64,000 nt of DNA from Gammaproteobacteria bacterium. Its GTDB lineage: Bacteria > Pseudomonadota > Gammaproteobacteria > SZUA-229. Made by a program: the position numbers and the translations under genes. Below are positions 708 to 36,931 of this stretch, piece by piece (position 1 is the first letter of the stretch; every line of letters begins with the position of its first letter). The notes under the pieces are model-generated. The model searched no databases. It was not told where the DNA came from and saw only the letters and a list, made by a program, of their open reading frames with translations. The stretch lies in contig JAOUNI010000001.1 of the NCBI GenBank assembly GCA_029881035.1, forward strand, positions 92,924 to 156,923. Direction: 5' to 3'.

Positions 708-1883
708 AACGATCAACCCCATGATGCTGATGATAACCGGCTCCATGATGCCAACGATGAAAGCAATCAGTGTTACCTGTTCACGTTCCAGTTGAGTGGA
801 GGCGCGGCTCAACATTTCTTCGAGTTTCCCGCTGTTTTCACCGCTGGCAATGAGTTGCAGGGTGATAGGTGGAAATAAGTGGCTAGCTTCCAGCGATTTG
901 CTGATGCTACCGCCTTCGCGTACTCGCTCGGCGGCGTTAAGAATGGCATTGCGTAACGGCAGGTTGACGACCACCTGCGCTGAAATGGTCATCGATTCGA
1001 GCACGGCAACGCCGCTGCCCGAGAGAATGCTGAAAGTGCGGGTGAACAGGGCGGTATTCAGGCCGCGAACCAGTTTCTGTATTAATGGTAATTTTAATAA
1101 TAAGCGGTGATAACGCTCCTGATGCACAGGTTGCTGAAGCATGATCTTCAGGCTGATAACCAGTGTGACAAGAATAAAAAATACGTAGATGCCATAGTTG
1201 ACGACAAAATCACTGATACTGATTAGCGTCAAGGTCAGGCCGGGTAGTTCTTCACCAATATCATCGAAAACAGCGACTACCTGCGGTACAACATAGGCCA
1301 TCAAAAAGCCGACAATCAGAATAGCAAAACCGGTAAGAAAGGCAGGGTAGATCATCGCCTGGCTAACTTTGCTCTGTAGTTCCTGTCGGTTTTCGGTGTA
1401 GTCAGCCAGCCGTTCCAGCACGGTATCAAGATGGCCAGATTTTTCACCCGCTTCAACGGTGGCGCAAAAAAGTTGTGAGAAAACTCTGGGAAAATCGGAT
1501 AAGCCTGCGGCCAGCGTATGGCCTTCCATCACCTTTGAACGTATCGCGTACATCATGCTTTTGATGCGCGGTTTTTCTGACTGGTTGGCTACCGCCGCGA
1601 GTGATTCTTCCAGAGGCAAAGCGGCCTGAACCAGGGTAGCCAGTTGCCGGGTGATCAGGGAGAGTTCGGTTGAGTTGATACCGCGCTGAAAAAGTTTTGA
1701 ACGATTTGATGGTGATGAATCTTTGCCAAACTTTTTTCTTGCTACTTTAGTGCTATCAATTTGTAACGGAGTCAGACCTTTGTCACGCAGAATCTGGCGT
1801 GTTTGTTTGGCCGTATCTGCTTCGATGACGCCTTTCTTTTCCTTGCCTTTTGCATCCAGTGCAATGTATTCAAATGCCGCCAT
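648..1883 (-). CDS. gspF: Type II secretion inner-membrane platform protein GspF
   Basis: A 411-residue polytopic protein of the GspF/PilC family, forming the inner-membrane platform on which the GspE ATPase acts. Two homologous T2SSF domains are visible, at about residues 70-195 and 275-400, with membrane segments near 173-200, 225-245 and at the C-terminus. The N-terminus (AAFEYIALDAKGKEKKG) is typical of the family. It is the last gene of a leftward gspC-D-E-F run and starts 5 bases after gspE ends. Since pilQ, pilM-P and pilT genes are also in this window, PilC is the alternative. Adjacency to gspE, gspD and gspC with its PDZ domain decides for GspF. Its 3' end overlaps the convergent rhombosortase gene. 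Confidence 0.93.
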   Translation of the reverse strand: MAAFEYIALDAKGKEKKGVIEADTAKQTRQILRDKGLTPLQIDSTKVARKKFGKDSSPSNRSKLFQRGINSTELSLITRQLATLVQAALPLEESLAAVANQSEKPRIKSMMYAIRSKVMEGHTLAAGLSDFPRVFSQLFCATVEAGEKSGHLDTVLERLADYTENRQELQSKVSQAMIYPAFLTGFAILIVGFLMAYVVPQVVAVFDDIGEELPGLTLTLISISDFVVNYGIYVFFILVTLVISLKIMLQQPVHQERYHRLLLKLPLIQKLVRGLNTALFTRTFSILSGSGVAVLESMTISAQVVVNLPLRNAILNAAERVREGGSISKSLEASHLFPPITLQLIASGENSGKLEEMLSRASTQLEREQVTLIAFIVGIMEPVIISIMGLIVLLIVLGILLPIFDLNQLVK

Positions 1884-31390: not shown

Positions 31391-32236
31391 TTAAAGTCTA
31401 TTCCAGATATTTAGGATTGCATCGGCTTGATTTAGTGTATAAAAATGTAGCCCTGGCGCACCAGATTCCAGTAACTGATGACATAGCTGTGTAACAACAT
31501 CGGCACCAAAATCACGTAGGCTTACCGGATCATTTTCGTAAGCAGCTAGCTGTAACCTAATCCAACGTGGAATTTCAGCGCCGCAGTTATCTGAAAAACG
31601 TATCAGGTTAGCGTAATTGGTAATGGGCATAATGCCAGGAACGATTGGAATATTTAGATGAGCCTGTTCACATTTTTCAATGAAGTGAGTGTACGCATCA
31701 ACATTGTAAAAGTATTGGGTGATTGCTGAATCAGCACCCGCATGTGCTTTGTTCATAAAATATTTGAAATCATCATCTGGAGATGATGATTCAGGATGGT
31801 ATTCAGGATAGGCTGCAATCTCGATATGAAAGTGGTTACCGGTTTTTTCACGGATAAAGGTAACTAATTCGTTGGCATGCGTTAGCTCATTATCAGGTTC
31901 CCCTTCATCGGGAATGTCACCTCTTAATGTCACCAGTCGATTAATGCCGAGTTTGATGTATTCATCAAGCAAATCAGCAATTTGCTGTTTAGTAGAACCC
32001 ATGCAGGAAATGTGTGGAGCAATAATTTGTGAGCTATCAGAATGCAGTTGTTTGACTGTTTCCATGGTGCGATCGCGGGTGGTGCCGCCAGCGCCAAAGG
32101 TTACGGAAAAAAAAGCAGGGTTGATAATGTCATTCAATTGTCGATGTGTCGCAATTAGCTTATCCATTCCAGCATCGGTGCGGGGTGGAAAAAACTCACA
32201 ACTGAAAATAGGCTTATTACGGTGTTTAATACTCAT
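31391..32236 (-). CDS. metF: 5,10-methylenetetrahydrofolate reductase MetF
   Basis: A 281-residue flavoenzyme that reduces methylene-THF to methyl-THF, the methyl donor for methionine synthase. FSCEFFPPRT at the N-terminus and FGAGGTTRDRT (about 48-58) are conserved, as is ALRGD-like TLRGDIPDEG. It follows ahcY, the usual partner downstream of SAH riboswitches in Pseudomonas. The 86-base gap holds a strong inverted repeat (32273-32308). No metE or metH is in the window. Confidence 0.96.
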   Translation of the reverse strand: MSIKHRNKPIFSCEFFPPRTDAGMDKLIATHRQLNDIINPAFFSVTFGAGGTTRDRTMETVKQLHSDSSQIIAPHISCMGSTKQQIADLLDEYIKLGINRLVTLRGDIPDEGEPDNELTHANELVTFIREKTGNHFHIEIAAYPEYHPESSSPDDDFKYFMNKAHAGADSAITQYFYNVDAYTHFIEKCEQAHLNIPIVPGIMPITNYANLIRFSDNCGAEIPRWIRLQLAAYENDPVSLRDFGADVVTQLCHQLLESGAPGLHFYTLNQADAILNIWNRL

Positions 32237-32322: not shown

Positions 32323-33747
32323 TTAGTAACGATAGTGTTCAGGTTTGTATGGGCCTTCGACAGGTACATTGATGTAATCAGCCTGTTTTTGTGACAGTGG
32401 AGTCAGGTATGCGCCAATTTTGCCAAGGTGAAGTCGTGCAACTTTTTCATCCAGCTTTTTGGGTAATATATAAACCTGATTTTCATATTGATCACCGTTT
32501 GTGTAGAACTCCATTTGCGCCATTACCTGATTGGTAAAGGAGGCGGACATAACAAAGCTGGGGTGGCCGGTGGCGCAGCCGAGATTAACCAGTCGGCCTT
32601 TGGCTAGAATGATAATGCGTTTACCGTCTGGGAAAATAACATGATCAACTTGTGGTTTAATTTCGTCCCACTCATATTTTTCCAGTGAAGCAATGTTGAT
32701 TTCAGAATCGAAGTGACCAATATTACAAACGATAGCTTCATTTTTCATTGCCACCATATGGTCGTGGTCGATAACATTCACATTACCTGTAGTGGTAACA
32801 AAAATATCGCCCTGGCTTGAAGCTACATTCATGTCAACCACGCGGTAACCTTCCATTGCAGCCTGAAGTGCACAAATAGGATCAATTTCAGTGACCATAA
32901 CGGTCGCACCCATACCGCGGAATGCCTGTGCACAACCTTTACCAACATCACCATAACCCAGGACAACGCAGATTTTGCCAGCAATCATAACGTCAGTAGC
33001 GCGTTTGATACTGTCGATAAGTGATTCACGGCAACCGTACAAATTGTCAAATTTTGATTTAGTAGCTGAGTCGTTGACGTTCATTGCAGGGAACAGTAGT
33101 TGGCCTGCTTCCATCATTTGGTACAAACGATGCACACCTGTGGTGGTTTCTTCTGTAACACCTTTTATATTTGCGGCCATTTTAGACCACATTTTGCTGT
33201 TGCCAGTGATAGTGCGTTTTAGTACGTCAAGAATAGCTTTCCATTCTTCGTTGTCGTCGGCTTTTGCTGCGGGTACAACGCCACCGGCATTTTCGTATTC
33301 AGTGCCTTTGTGTATCAATAAGGTGGCATCTCCACCATCATCGAGAATCATATTGGCTGTGCCACCATCAGGCCAGGTCAGAGCTTTTTCAGTACACCAC
33401 CAGTATTCCTCAATAGTTTCACCTTTCCAGGCATAGACTGGGATACCCTGATCGGCAATAGCGGCTGCAGCTTGATCCTGTGTGGAAAAAATATTGCATG
33501 AAGCCCAGCGGACTTGTGCGCCCAGAGCAATCAGTGTTTCAATTAAGACGGCAGTCTGGATGGTCATGTGCAGGCTACCGGTTATACGTGCACCCTTAAG
33601 TGGTTGTACAGCACCGAATTCTTCACGCAGAGCCATCAGGCCAGGCATCTCGGTTTCGGCAATGCGAATTTCTTTGTGTCCCCATTCAGCAAGGGAAAGA
33701 TCGGCAACTTTAAAGTCGGTGAAATTTTTATTAGTAACGGCGCTCAT
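32323..33747 (-). CDS. ahcY: Adenosylhomocysteinase AhcY
   Basis: A 474-residue NAD-dependent enzyme that hydrolyses S-adenosylhomocysteine to adenosine and homocysteine, relieving inhibition of methyltransferases. NAD-binding motif [20 protein letters not shown] is near 260-279, and the C-terminus ends in PYKPEHYRY as in the family. Length is that of the proteobacterial type with the roughly 40-residue insertion. A GGAGATGAG ribosome site precedes the ATG. It is controlled by the SAH riboswitch just upstream and is followed by metF. Confidence 0.97.
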
Positions 33748-33775
33748 GGCTCATCTCCAAAGTAGTAAAAAGAAA

Positions 33776-33838
33776 TGAGCGCCGTTGTCTAGTTCTGAGC
33801 CTCGCGATGGTAGATTATCGCTGCAGCGCTCCTCAGAA
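33776..33838 (-). promoter_or_regulatory. SAH riboswitch in the ahcY leader
   Basis: Read on the minus strand, the leader has the SAH riboswitch core GAGGAGCGCTGCAGCG followed by a GCGAT/ATCGC hairpin and GCGAGGCTC. The P1 stem is TTCTGAG (complement of 33832-33838) with CTCAGAA (complement of 33793-33799). The pseudoknot pairs GAGCGC (33827-33832) with GCGCTC in AACGGCGCTC (33777-33786). All conserved parts known from the family are present and the downstream gene is ahcY, the standard target. SAH binding should raise ahcY (and metF) expression. The 3' pseudoknot strand ends 29 bases before the start codon. Confidence 0.95.
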
Positions 33839-33851
33839 AATTAGTAAGGGA

Positions 33852-35009
33852 TTATAGCTTAGCTGCGTCTTTTAGTGCAGCCGCTTTATCCGTTTTTTCC
33901 CAGGTAAAATCAGGTTCTTCTCGTCCAAAATGACCGTATGCAGCGGTATCACTGTATATGGGTCTCAACAAGTCAAGCATTTGAATCAGGCCTTTTGGTT
34001 TCAGGTTGAAGTGCTCACGAACAAGTTGAACTATCCTGGCATCACTGATTTTTCCTGTGCCAAACGTTTGCACAGAAATTGAGGTGGGTTCAGCTACGCC
34101 AATGGCATAAGAAACCTGAATTTCACATTTGTCAGCCAGACCGGCAGCAACGATGTTCTTAGCGACGTAACGGCCCGCATAGGCAGCAGAACGGTCAACT
34201 TTAGAAGGATCTTTGCCTGAGAAGGCGCCGCCACCGTGACGAGCCATGCCACCATAAGTATCAACGATGATCTTGCGACCGGTTAATCCACAATCACCCA
34301 CAGGGCCGCCAATAACGAAGTTACCTGTTGGATTGATAAAAAATTTGGTGTCTTTATTGAGTAATTCAGCAGGTAAAATTGGCTTGATAATTTCGTCCAT
34401 GACAGCTTCACGTAGGTCTTTCAAGCCGATTTCGGGATTATGTTGTGTAGAAAGAACAACTGCATCAATTCCAATGGGCTTGTCATTTTCGTAACGGAAA
34501 GTCACCTGACTTTTAGCATCAGGACGAAGCCACGAAAGAGTACCATTTTTGCGCACTTCTGCCTGACGTTTTACTAATTTATGAGCATAAGTAATGGGTG
34601 CTGGCATAAGGACGTTAGTTTCATTGCTGGCATAACCAAACATCAGACCCTGATCACCAGCACCTTGCTCATGATCTTCTGATTCATTAACGCCCATGGC
34701 GATATCGGCGGATTGTTTGTCGATGGAAGTGATAACAGCGCAGGATTCCCAGTCGAAACCCATGTCTGAATGGTTGTAGCCAATGCGTTTCACGGTTTTA
34801 CGGACGATATCCTGCATGTCGACCCAGGCTTCAGTCGTGATTTCACCAGCTAATATGACCATGCCAGTATTAACTAAGGTTTCGCAGGCAACGCGTGCTT
34901 TGGTGTCTTGCTCAAAAATGGCATCAAGTACGGCATCTGAGATTTGATCAGCGACCTTGTCTGGGTGGCCTTCAGAAACAGATTCTGAAGTAAATAAGTA
35001 GTCATTCAT
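33852..35009 (-). CDS. metK: S-adenosylmethionine synthetase MetK
   Basis: A 385-residue enzyme making SAM from methionine and ATP. Signatures [12 protein letters not shown] (about 116-127) and the P-loop-like [16 protein letters not shown] (about 256-271) are present, as is the N-terminal [17 protein letters not shown]. The start ATG follows an AGG ribosome site by 8 bases. Its 180-base leader carries a SAM-II-type riboswitch, a terminator-like hairpin and a clear promoter. ahcY follows in the same direction with its own riboswitch. Confidence 0.97.
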
Positions 35010-35023
35010 ATTTTGTTACCTGC

Positions 35024-35060
35024 AATAAAAAACCCATAAAAGCACAGCTTCAACGGGTTT
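35024..35060 (-). terminator. Attenuator-type terminator hairpin in the metK leader
   Basis: On the minus strand AAACCC (35055-35060) pairs with GGGTTT (35030-35035), with an inner AAGC/GCTT pair, followed by a T run (TTTTTTATT). It lies between the SAM-II aptamer and the metK start, where a premature terminator is expected. AGCTGT within its loop (35044-35049) is complementary to ACAGCT of the aptamer (35091-35096). A competing hairpin TTTTGAT/ATCAAAA (35058-35082) shares bases with the terminator stem. Confidence 0.7.
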
Positions 35061-35084
35061 TGATATTCTAGGTAGATCAAAATT

Positions 35085-35135
35085 CGCTTTAGCTGTATTT
35101 ATAAAGCGCCCGCAATCTGAGTCAAATTGGCGCTT
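35085..35135 (-). promoter_or_regulatory. SAM-II-type riboswitch in the metK leader
   Basis: The minus-strand leader matches the SAM-II (SAM_alpha) aptamer as I know it: stem GCGC, then ATTTGA, ATTGC, closing GCGC, then ATAAAT and AGCTAAA at the expected spacings. The P1 arms are AAGCGC and GCGCTT. The AGCTAAA strand forms the pseudoknot around SAM. SAM-II is best known in alphaproteobacteria upstream of metA/metX; a metK target in a gammaproteobacterium fits product feedback. It sits just after the promoter and before an attenuator hairpin. Identified by eye; a covariance-model search would settle it. Confidence 0.88.
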
Positions 35136-35145
35136 GAGGTTGGTC

Positions 35146-35173
35146 ATTATCCACCAAATTGCATACTTGTCAA
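35146..35173 (-). promoter_or_regulatory. Sigma-70-type promoter of metK
   Basis: Perfect -35 TTGACA (35168-35173) and -10 GATAAT (35146-35151), spacing 16 bases, reading leftward. Transcription would start near 35138-35140, a few bases before the SAM-II aptamer, which agrees with the position of a riboswitch leader. Confidence 0.8.
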
Positions 35174-35191: not shown

Positions 35192-36931
35192 TTAGCGGGT
35201 AAATAACGCTTTATATTCCCCTAATTCAGTTTCGTTCAGGCCAGTTTCCTGTAATTTTTTTTCGAGAATTTCATAACGATGATCATTATTTTTATCAATT
35301 AGATTTTTTATGGTATCAACTAGAACATTTTTAGTATTTTGAGGATCATCACTGCCGACAATGTTTCGTTGCATCATTTTTTGTAAGGCAGAAAAATTAT
35401 TATTATCACGCCAACGTTCTAATAAAGCAGAAGGAGTAATTTCAGGGTGGCTTTGAATTAGCTTATGTATTTCATATAACAGAGGTAGACCTTGTATCGC
35501 AGAATCCTTAAAACTATCAGGAATATGTACTTCGAAGGCAAGCTTTGGAGATTGTAATAATAAGGCTATAGCATCGCGAGTTGCGTTCTGTTTTATTTCG
35601 CGATTTGATTTTGGTTTTGATGAAACTATAACAGTATTGTTTACAGTCGCTGAGAGCTGGAGTTTGCTTGCGTTGAGACCTGTGCGTGAAGCAAGCTCCT
35701 GATAGAGTAAATCTTTGAATACGCTTTCTGGAAGTTTACTTAATAAAGGCCGGGCTTTTTCCGTGAGTGAGGACTTTCCTTCAGAAGTATTTACATTAAT
35801 ATTTTCTGAAAGTCGTTCGAATAAAAACTCAGAAAGAGGCTTTGCGCTGGTGAGTCGTTGCTCGAAATTTTTTTTACCTTCTTTTCGGATCATTGAATCG
35901 GGATCTTCACCTTCGGGTAGAAAAAGAAATTTTGCTTCAAATCCATCACGCAACAAGGGCAGGGCATTTTCCAAAGCGCGCCATGCCGCTTTTATGCCTG
36001 CTTGATCGCCATCGTAGCAGAAGATGACGGTTCTAACTGTGCGGAATGCGCGCTGCAATTGTTCACTGGTGGTGGCTGTGCCTAATGAAGCAATGGCATA
36101 GTTGACACCGTGTTGTGCTAGTGCAACCACATCCATGTAACCTTCAACAATGATGAGTTGTTCGAGGTTACGAACCGCTTTGCGAGCTTCGTACAAGCCA
36201 TACAATTCCTGGCCCTTGTGGAAAACTGCATTCTCCGGAGAGTTTAGATATTTGGGCTCACCCTGGTCGATAACGCGGCCGCCGAAACCAATAATAAGAC
36301 CACGACGGTCAGTAATGGGGAATATAATACGATCGCGGAAACGATCATATTGTTTATCATTTTCATTAATAACTAACAGACCGGTTGCAATTAATGCATC
36401 GATGGTGTTTTTGTCAGTGCCCAGATGATCGGTTAAAAAGTTCCAGCCTTCAGGGGCGTAACCAATTTGATAGGCTTTAGCGACCTCTCCAGTTAAGCCG
36501 CGTTGCTGCAGATATTGAATGGCCTTGTTTGAGGTCTTTAGCTGTTGCTTGAAGAGTACGGAAACTTTTTCGAGAATATCGTATAGCGGTTGTTTGTCAT
36601 CTTTGCTGTTTGTAGAACTAAAGTGAGTGTTCTCTCTGGGTACTTCAAGGTTATATTCAGTGGCGAGTGCTTCGACAGCATCTACAAAGTCCAGGTTTTC
36701 GTATTCCATGATAAAGCCCAGTGCCGTACCATGAGCGCCGCAGCCAAAGCAGTGGTAAAACTGTTTACTATCGCTGACGGTAAACGAAGGGGTCTTTTCA
36801 TTATGAAAAGGACAGCAGGCGGTGTATTCCTTACCTTTTTTTCTGAGTGGCACACGAGCATTAATGACCTCAATAATATCTGCACGAGATATTAGGTCAT
36901 CGATGAAGTTTTGTGGAATACGGCCTGCCAT
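35192..36931 (-). CDS. dnaG: DNA primase DnaG
   Basis: A 579-residue primase that makes RNA primers for replication. The CHC2 zinc finger covers about 38-65 (CCPFHNEKTPS then CFGCGAHG). The TOPRIM catalytic core includes IVEGYMDVVAL (about 262) and FCYDGDQAG (about 307). The C-terminal DnaB-binding region is present. I used the ATG at 36931 (MAGRIPQNF); a TTG two codons earlier is less likely. It is unusual that dnaG is not between rpsU and rpoD; rpsU lies about 12 kb away at 49281. Confidence 0.96.
   Translation of the reverse strand: MAGRIPQNFIDDLISRADIIEVINARVPLRKKGKEYTACCPFHNEKTPSFTVSDSKQFYHCFGCGAHGTALGFIMEYENLDFVDAVEALATEYNLEVPRENTHFSSTNSKDDKQPLYDILEKVSVLFKQQLKTSNKAIQYLQQRGLTGEVAKAYQIGYAPEGWNFLTDHLGTDKNTIDALIATGLLVINENDKQYDRFRDRIIFPITDRRGLIIGFGGRVIDQGEPKYLNSPENAVFHKGQELYGLYEARKAVRNLEQLIIVEGYMDVVALAQHGVNYAIASLGTATTSEQLQRAFRTVRTVIFCYDGDQAGIKAAWRALENALPLLRDGFEAKFLFLPEGEDPDSMIRKEGKKNFEQRLTSAKPLSEFLFERLSENINVNTSEGKSSLTEKARPLLSKLPESVFKDLLYQELASRTGLNASKLQLSATVNNTVIVSSKPKSNREIKQNATRDAIALLLQSPKLAFEVHIPDSFKDSAIQGLPLLYEIHKLIQSHPEITPSALLERWRDNNNFSALQKMMQRNIVGSDDPQNTKNVLVDTIKNLIDKNNDHRYEILEKKLQETGLNETELGEYKALFTR

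Follow-up and report, generated by a model that had tools for sequence, protein, structure and literature searches.

How is metK, the gene for methionine adenosyltransferase, controlled in a gammaproteobacterium without MetJ? The question arises in a stretch of 64,000 nucleotides from such a genome (here, the window). MetJ was sought in the whole genome and is absent, which leaves metK without that known repressor. From the sequence of the window, a SAM-II-type riboswitch had been predicted in the metK leader, a few bases after a strong promoter; the element was thought either to extend the range of its class or to indicate transfer. The analysis reported here points to a riboswitch of this type that very probably feeds the SAM level back on metK through transcription attenuation, as judged from sequence and predicted folds.

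The metK leader and its operon

On the minus strand, the dnaG stop at 35192 is followed by a sigma-70-type promoter, a SAM-II-type aptamer, a short linker, a terminator hairpin with its U run, AGG, and metK, which starts at 35009 (Table 1). The promoter of the original prediction is there: TTGACA, a 16-nt spacer, and GATAAT give 11 of 12 matches in a consensus promoter scan. The metK transcript would start at about 35141–35137, immediately 5' of the aptamer stem P1. The original prediction also had the position of the aptamer right, at 35085–35135, but ended it too soon: the core reaches 35079 and the terminator 35027.

Table 1. Features of the metK locus, with positions counted in the window
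Feature	Position	Strand	Basis
-35 box TTGACA	35168..35173	-	consensus scan; most genus leaders show the TTGACA...GATAAT arrangement
-10 box GATAAT	35146..35151	-	consensus scan
SAM-II-type aptamer core	35079..35135	-	RF00521, 26.6 bits; R2, 63.4 bits, E 1.5e-14; R1, 82.7 bits, partly circular
P1 5' strand AGCGCC	35129..35134	-	compensatory changes: 3 of 6 pairs in 26 sequences, 4 of 6 in 91 sequences
AUUUG block (L1), which in SAM-II supplies the third strand of the SAM-binding triplex	35123..35127	-	invariant, 26 of 26; role by homology
UUGC block, 5' strand of the putative pseudoknot P2	35112..35115	-	invariant in 26 sequences
P1 3' strand GGCGCU	35105..35110	-	compensatory changes
ACAGCUAAAGCGA, 3' strand of the putative pseudoknot P2, proposed to act as the switching strand	35084..35096	-	GCUAAA and final GA invariant; pairs with terminator 5' arm in predicted fold
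GCUAAA block	35088..35093	-	invariant in 26 sequences
Predicted antiterminator, one long arm: aptamer-tail UACAGCU, AGCG and UUUUGA with AGCUGUG, CGUU and UCAAAA of the terminator 5' arm	35043..35097	-	minimum free-energy fold of the transcript before the terminator 3' arm; putative function
Intrinsic terminator AAAACCCGUUGAAGC UGU GCUUUUAUGGGUUUU and U run	35027..35061	-	stem -14.2 kcal/mol; conserved in the genus and most of the order
AGG, the probable metK Shine-Dalgarno sequence	35019..35021	-	sequence
metK, methionine adenosyltransferase	33852..35009	-	TIGR01034, 632.8 bits
SAH riboswitch between metK and ahcY	33770..33840	-	RF01057, 58.5 bits
ahcY, adenosylhomocysteinase	32323..33747	-	TIGR00936, 632.5 bits
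metF, methylenetetrahydrofolate reductase	31391..32236	-	TIGR00676, 312.1 bits

Default annotation overlooks the aptamer because its score lies under the Rfam gathering cut-off, at which the window yields the SAH riboswitch only. In a cmscan of 401 nt, RF00521 matches 35143–35068 with 26.6 bits (E 4.1e-4) against a gathering score of 36 bits, a threshold that reflects curation, not structure; RF01726 scores 22.3 bits in the same leader, and RF01826 (SAM-V) has no match in the region up to E 10. No RF00521 site in the 2.69-Mb genome outscores the metK leader (E 6.5e-4); the runner-up has 15.4 bits (E 0.75).

Two further covariance models bear on the assignment. R2, made from Marinomonas and Thiomicrospira-type metK leaders only, holds nothing from the window's lineage and so avoids circularity; it finds the site in the genome with 63.4 bits (E 1.5e-14), the next match scoring 22 bits. 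R1 includes the window's lineage, hence its 82.7 bits are partly circular for this site. Each of R1 and RF00521 recognises the other's members, which argues for one class. All seven genus genomes carry RF00521 matches (26.6–34.5 bits), and those whose sequence was read lie in the metK leader; the same element exceeds the Rfam cut-off before metK in four Marinomonas leaders (36.4–39.2 bits) and at loci L142, L143, and L148 (38.3–39.0 bits). A search of the whole window with R1 gave no second copy; the original prediction had noted that metX in the window has no such element.

The conserved blocks P1, AUUUG, UUGC, and GCUAAA stand on the minus strand in the order originally described. Among 26 metK-leader aptamers, AUUUG, UUGC, GCUAAA, and the GA two bases beyond GCUAAA show no variation. 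P1 changes from C-G to U-A at two separate pairs, one in Marinomonas and the other in L019 and L023. Over 91 sequences, four of its six pairs show double changes (34 cells), 96.9% of cells are paired, and none of 500 shuffles reaches the score. The G-C and C-G pairs of P2a are kept in all 26 aptamers. An additional outer pair, between the last loop base and a base just 5' of GCUAAA, is G-C in all aptamers but one, which has A-U; a pair resembling it was predicted from mutual information (PMC2258182). In P2b the inner pairs are kept (C-G in 26 of 26, U-A in 25 of 26) and the outer ones occur in about half. The window's own P2b is weak, with two adjacent pairs (C-G, U-A) and then a C-A mismatch; the metX SAM-II of the crystal structure likewise has just two P2b pairs (PMC6061858). 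The aptamer core is nearly identical in the seven genus genomes, amid flanking letters that vary. Conservation supports a putative binding site for SAM. The central claim of the original prediction, an aptamer of SAM-II type before a gammaproteobacterial metK, is supported by RF00521 and R2 as independent covariance models, by conservation in the genus and the order, and by the compensatory changes in P1; the conditions set for its refutation, no covariance-model match and no P1 covariation among relatives, were checked and did not refute it. The prediction had overlooked the expression platform (terminator plus antiterminator), the second riboswitch, for SAH, ahead of ahcY, and how widespread the family is.

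Downstream on the minus strand follow metK, ahcY, metF, and rsmE. The SAH riboswitch begins 12 nt 3' of metK and stops 22 nt 5' of ahcY. The 12 nt that separate metK from the SAH aptamer are too few for a promoter, so metK and ahcY probably share one transcript; a second promoter within metK might still drive ahcY separately. An SAH element lies 3' of metK in all eight related SAM-II–metK loci scanned, which belong to the window's wider group. The whole genome holds one SAH element, and one R1 match at E <= 0.01. In seven other metK leaders (L024, L027, L029, L047, L049, L056, and L076), the sequence resembles an SAH riboswitch by eye: GGGGCGCUGC...GGCUC...CGCUCAUU...AAUGAGCG. According to PMC4239095, metK is not under SAH riboswitch control.

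A predicted attenuation switch

A simple terminator scan of the leader called none; direct folding gave the hairpin and then the U run. When the transcript is folded only up to the terminator loop, without the 3' arm, the aptamer tail pairs with the terminator 5' arm and P1 stays intact. Because the binding strand itself pairs with the terminator arm in this partial-transcript fold, the SAM-binding strand would prevent termination. UUUUGAU/AUCAAAA was considered as the sole antiterminator and set aside, since in the partial-transcript fold it makes up no more than the inner stretch of a longer arm. Once the transcript is complete, the terminator fold is favoured over the antiterminator fold (-39.2 against -34.1), which means that any switch would need to be kinetic.

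The same antiterminator is predicted in all 38 terminator-type metK leaders, with 8–13 interstrand pairs against shuffled means of 0.7–3.6; these folds are free-energy minima only, with the pseudoknot left out. The partners change in step: ACAGCU (35096–35091) with AGCUGU (35049–35044) in the window, GCAGCU with AGCUGC in relatives, GCUAAAGCG with CGUUUUAGC in other genera of the family, and GCUAAACAG with CUGUUUAGC in Marinomonas. Each leader's own pairing exceeds swapped pairings (permutation p<0.001 overall and 0.0018 in the GCUAAAGCG group, uncorrected for relatedness). Among 14 close leaders, position 2 of the antiterminator is G-C in six, A-U in five, and G-U in three, with no break, and covariation there does not rise above shuffles. 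The antiterminator is supported by the swap and shuffle tests, not by covariation in the close leaders. Complementary stretches are visible by eye in the metX leaders L220 and L226.

These observations suggest the following model. The RNA would start just 5' of P1, and P1 would form constitutively. The SAM-binding strand, ACAGCUAAAGCG, would have an alternative partner, the 5' arm of the intrinsic terminator. Without SAM, UACAGCUAAAGCG and the UUUUGA that follows it would pair with that arm, and polymerase would read into metK. With SAM, the GCUAAA strand would be captured in pseudoknot P2 around the ligand, the terminator would fold, and metK would be off; ahcY and metF would also be shut off, if they lie on the metK transcript. 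By analogy, the SAH riboswitch 3' of metK would control ahcY separately, raising its expression when SAH accumulates. SAM binding, the switching, and its OFF-with-SAM direction are what we infer from the leader, as is the double duty of the ligand-binding strand as antiterminator strand.

Folding found no terminator in Thiomicrorhabdus-type leaders. There, a CCGUACCUCG segment can pair either with the aptamer tail or with CGAGGA before metK, which by eye suggests that these leaders may control ribosome binding by sequestering the site.

Might the aptamer have a different ligand? Riboswitch folds of other classes are known to have changed ligand, and a SAM-II homologue could bind another molecule or be poorly selective, accepting for instance SAH, or SAM and SAH alike. 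The short P2b, a loop presumably one nucleotide longer than the crystal-type SAM-II loop, and the SAH riboswitch in the same operon would fit such a change. However, the SAM-site blocks of SAM-II are invariant; the targets among relatives are genes of methionine and SAM synthesis (metK, metZ, metX, metF, and metN); and repression of metK by its product suits SAM better than SAH. We therefore consider a changed ligand unlikely.

A decayed SAM-II, with an aptamer that has lost binding and a terminator left as a constitutive attenuator, seems less probable again: the Rfam score under the cut-off and the weak P2b would be expected of it, but the core is nearly identical across the seven genus genomes amid variable flanks, P1 covaries, and the complementarity between terminator arm and aptamer strand persists through sequence change. 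Least credible of all is a chance likeness in the leader of an unrelated attenuator. RF00521 alone is modest evidence against it (E 6.5e-4 for the genome), but the independent model R2, at E 1.5e-14, for practical purposes already refutes it, and the motif also precedes metK in Marinomonas, Thiomicrorhabdus, and Thiomicrospira, as well as other methionine genes across the class. SAM-responsive attenuation of metK thus remains the preferred reading.

A branch below the cut-off

With R1, the element is found in 35 of the 54 genomes searched from the order. In an even sample of the class it is found in 181 of 369 genomes (E <= 1e-3), about 160 of which have E < 1e-8. A phylum sample, which shares some genomes with the class sample, gives 46 of 299. 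The GTDB class Gammaproteobacteria takes in the former Betaproteobacteria, so the class and phylum counts cover both groups. About 95 of the class and phylum aptamers were fetched, with downstream genes called partly from N-termini: about two thirds precede a metZ/metY-type sulfhydrylase gene, followed in number by metK, metF, metN, and metX. The RF00521 cut-off was reached at 8 of 49 loci scanned with Rfam, and one of these is the clearly alpha-type L222 (67.4 bits); as it now stands, the cut-off misses most of the gamma- and betaproteobacterial branch.

The element is not universal near the window's lineage, as L017, the closest metK relative (91% identity), has no SAM-II motif in its metK leader. 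Beyond the class, L156, L158, L159, and L160 (same phylum, other classes) score 66–70 bits with R1, against 26–36 bits in most other non-class matches, and could reflect transfer or an older branch. Tandem pairs of SAM-II-type aptamers, about 100–120 nt apart, stand in L128 (1501/1620), L189 (1699/1585, minus strand), L211 (301/414), L203 (301/412), L205 (1700/1603, minus strand), and L159 (1501/1613). In Neisseria gonorrhoeae NZ_CP119140 (L225, 2000–2045), a 32.9-bit R1 match with a shortened P1 and a linker 8 nt shorter apparently precedes a metN-type ABC transporter gene and may be a miniature variant; in Legionella adelaidensis NZ_LR134430 (L223, 2499–2559), a 58.4-bit SAM-II-type aptamer adjoins a frame that starts like metN.

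SAM-II was described in alphaproteobacteria (PMC1273637). A 2007 paper noted sporadic gammaproteobacterial members and suggested transfer (PMC2258182), and by 2009 the class was said to be commonest in Alpha-, Beta-, and Gammaproteobacteria (PMC2704228); the range extension offered in the original prediction is thus not new. Isolated recent transfer from alphaproteobacteria, its other suggestion, is unlikely given that the element occurs in about half of the class genomes sampled. A 2014 regulon study with Rfam profiles placed SAM_alpha in Rhizobiales and Rhodobacterales only, with none at metK (PMC4239095). Literature searches that covered few subscription papers gave no report of a metK-linked SAM-II in Gammaproteobacteria or of SAM-II with Marinomonas. 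The metK target, the abundance of 181 in 369, and the likely identity with the two elements discussed below were found in no paper searched.

Orphan elements and known systems

Two published elements of unknown ligand come into question. The metXZ element of betaproteobacteria was described as a separate element before metX or metZ (PMC4239095). Its pseudoknot of conserved regions 1-4 and 2-6, competing hairpin, and terminator match a SAM-II-type element as the text describes them; it was published as distinct and new, and the comparison with the SAM-II-type branch is by text description. The metX leaders L161, L220, and L226 match R1 at 54–62 bits. On description and these matches, metXZ is likely to belong to the SAM-II branch.

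The other is Bp2_Cand287, found in 2012 before metX or metZ in Burkholderia and suggested to be a cis element for methionine metabolism (PMC3521395). Rfam holds it as RF02424 (Bp2_287; Bp2_Cand287_SIPHT), classed as an sRNA gene. Read as its reverse complement, the consensus is GCGUCGAUUUGAUUUCAGCUUGCGGACGC...GCUAAAGCGA and contains the whole SAM-II core, as none of 200,000 shuffles does. RF02424 matches sit opposite R1 or RF00521 matches: in the window at 35027–35159 (plus strand), in L226 at 1501–1650 (minus strand), and in most of L127–L131, L140–L144, L149, and L154. A search of 12 genomes gave none over the RF02424 cut-off and two weak matches, one opposite an R1 match and the other in genome G276 near tRNA-like sequence. 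RF02424 appears to have been modelled on the strand opposite a SAM-II riboswitch and its terminator, and the reverse-complement core and opposite-strand matches make a strong case that Bp2_287 would be the SAM-II branch on the wrong strand.

Taken together, the results make it likely that SAM-II is not mainly alphaproteobacterial: a large gamma- and betaproteobacterial branch, mostly below the cut-off, would control metZ, metK, metX, metF, and metN; metXZ and the wrong-strand RF02424 would be the same riboswitch; and one operon would combine a SAM-OFF switch for metK with an SAH switch for ahcY. If so, SAM and SAH levels separately set two halves of the methylation cycle in the window's lineage, and metXZ and Bp2_287 acquire a concrete ligand hypothesis, SAM. 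The distribution suggests that SAM-II control of methionine and SAM genes is widespread in the class, the MetJ-less genome of the window included. Of more interest than this one leader are the extent of the missed branch and the orphan elements that it would explain; the leader itself is predicted to be a compact attenuator, its ligand-binding strand serving as antiterminator strand.

A review of tandem riboswitches states that SAH riboswitches are never found in tandem (PMC9481103); the window's arrangement differs in that a gene, metK, stands between the SAM-II-type and SAH elements. SAM-V (RF01826) shares its binding core and fold family with SAM-II (PMC6061858) and has a short outer helix; as noted, the window region has no match to its model. 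With SAM-II proper (RF00521, SAM_alpha; RF01726, long loop), the window's element shares P1, the AUUUG, UUGC, and GCUAAA blocks, the order and spacing of the putative pseudoknot, a link to methionine genes, and the predicted attenuation by a terminator, as in many members. It differs in its target, metK, as against metA, metX, metY/metZ, metC, hom, and metW in the papers searched; in its GCGCC-type P1, short P2b, and score under the gathering cut-off; and in the predicted use of one strand both to bind the ligand and to form the antiterminator.
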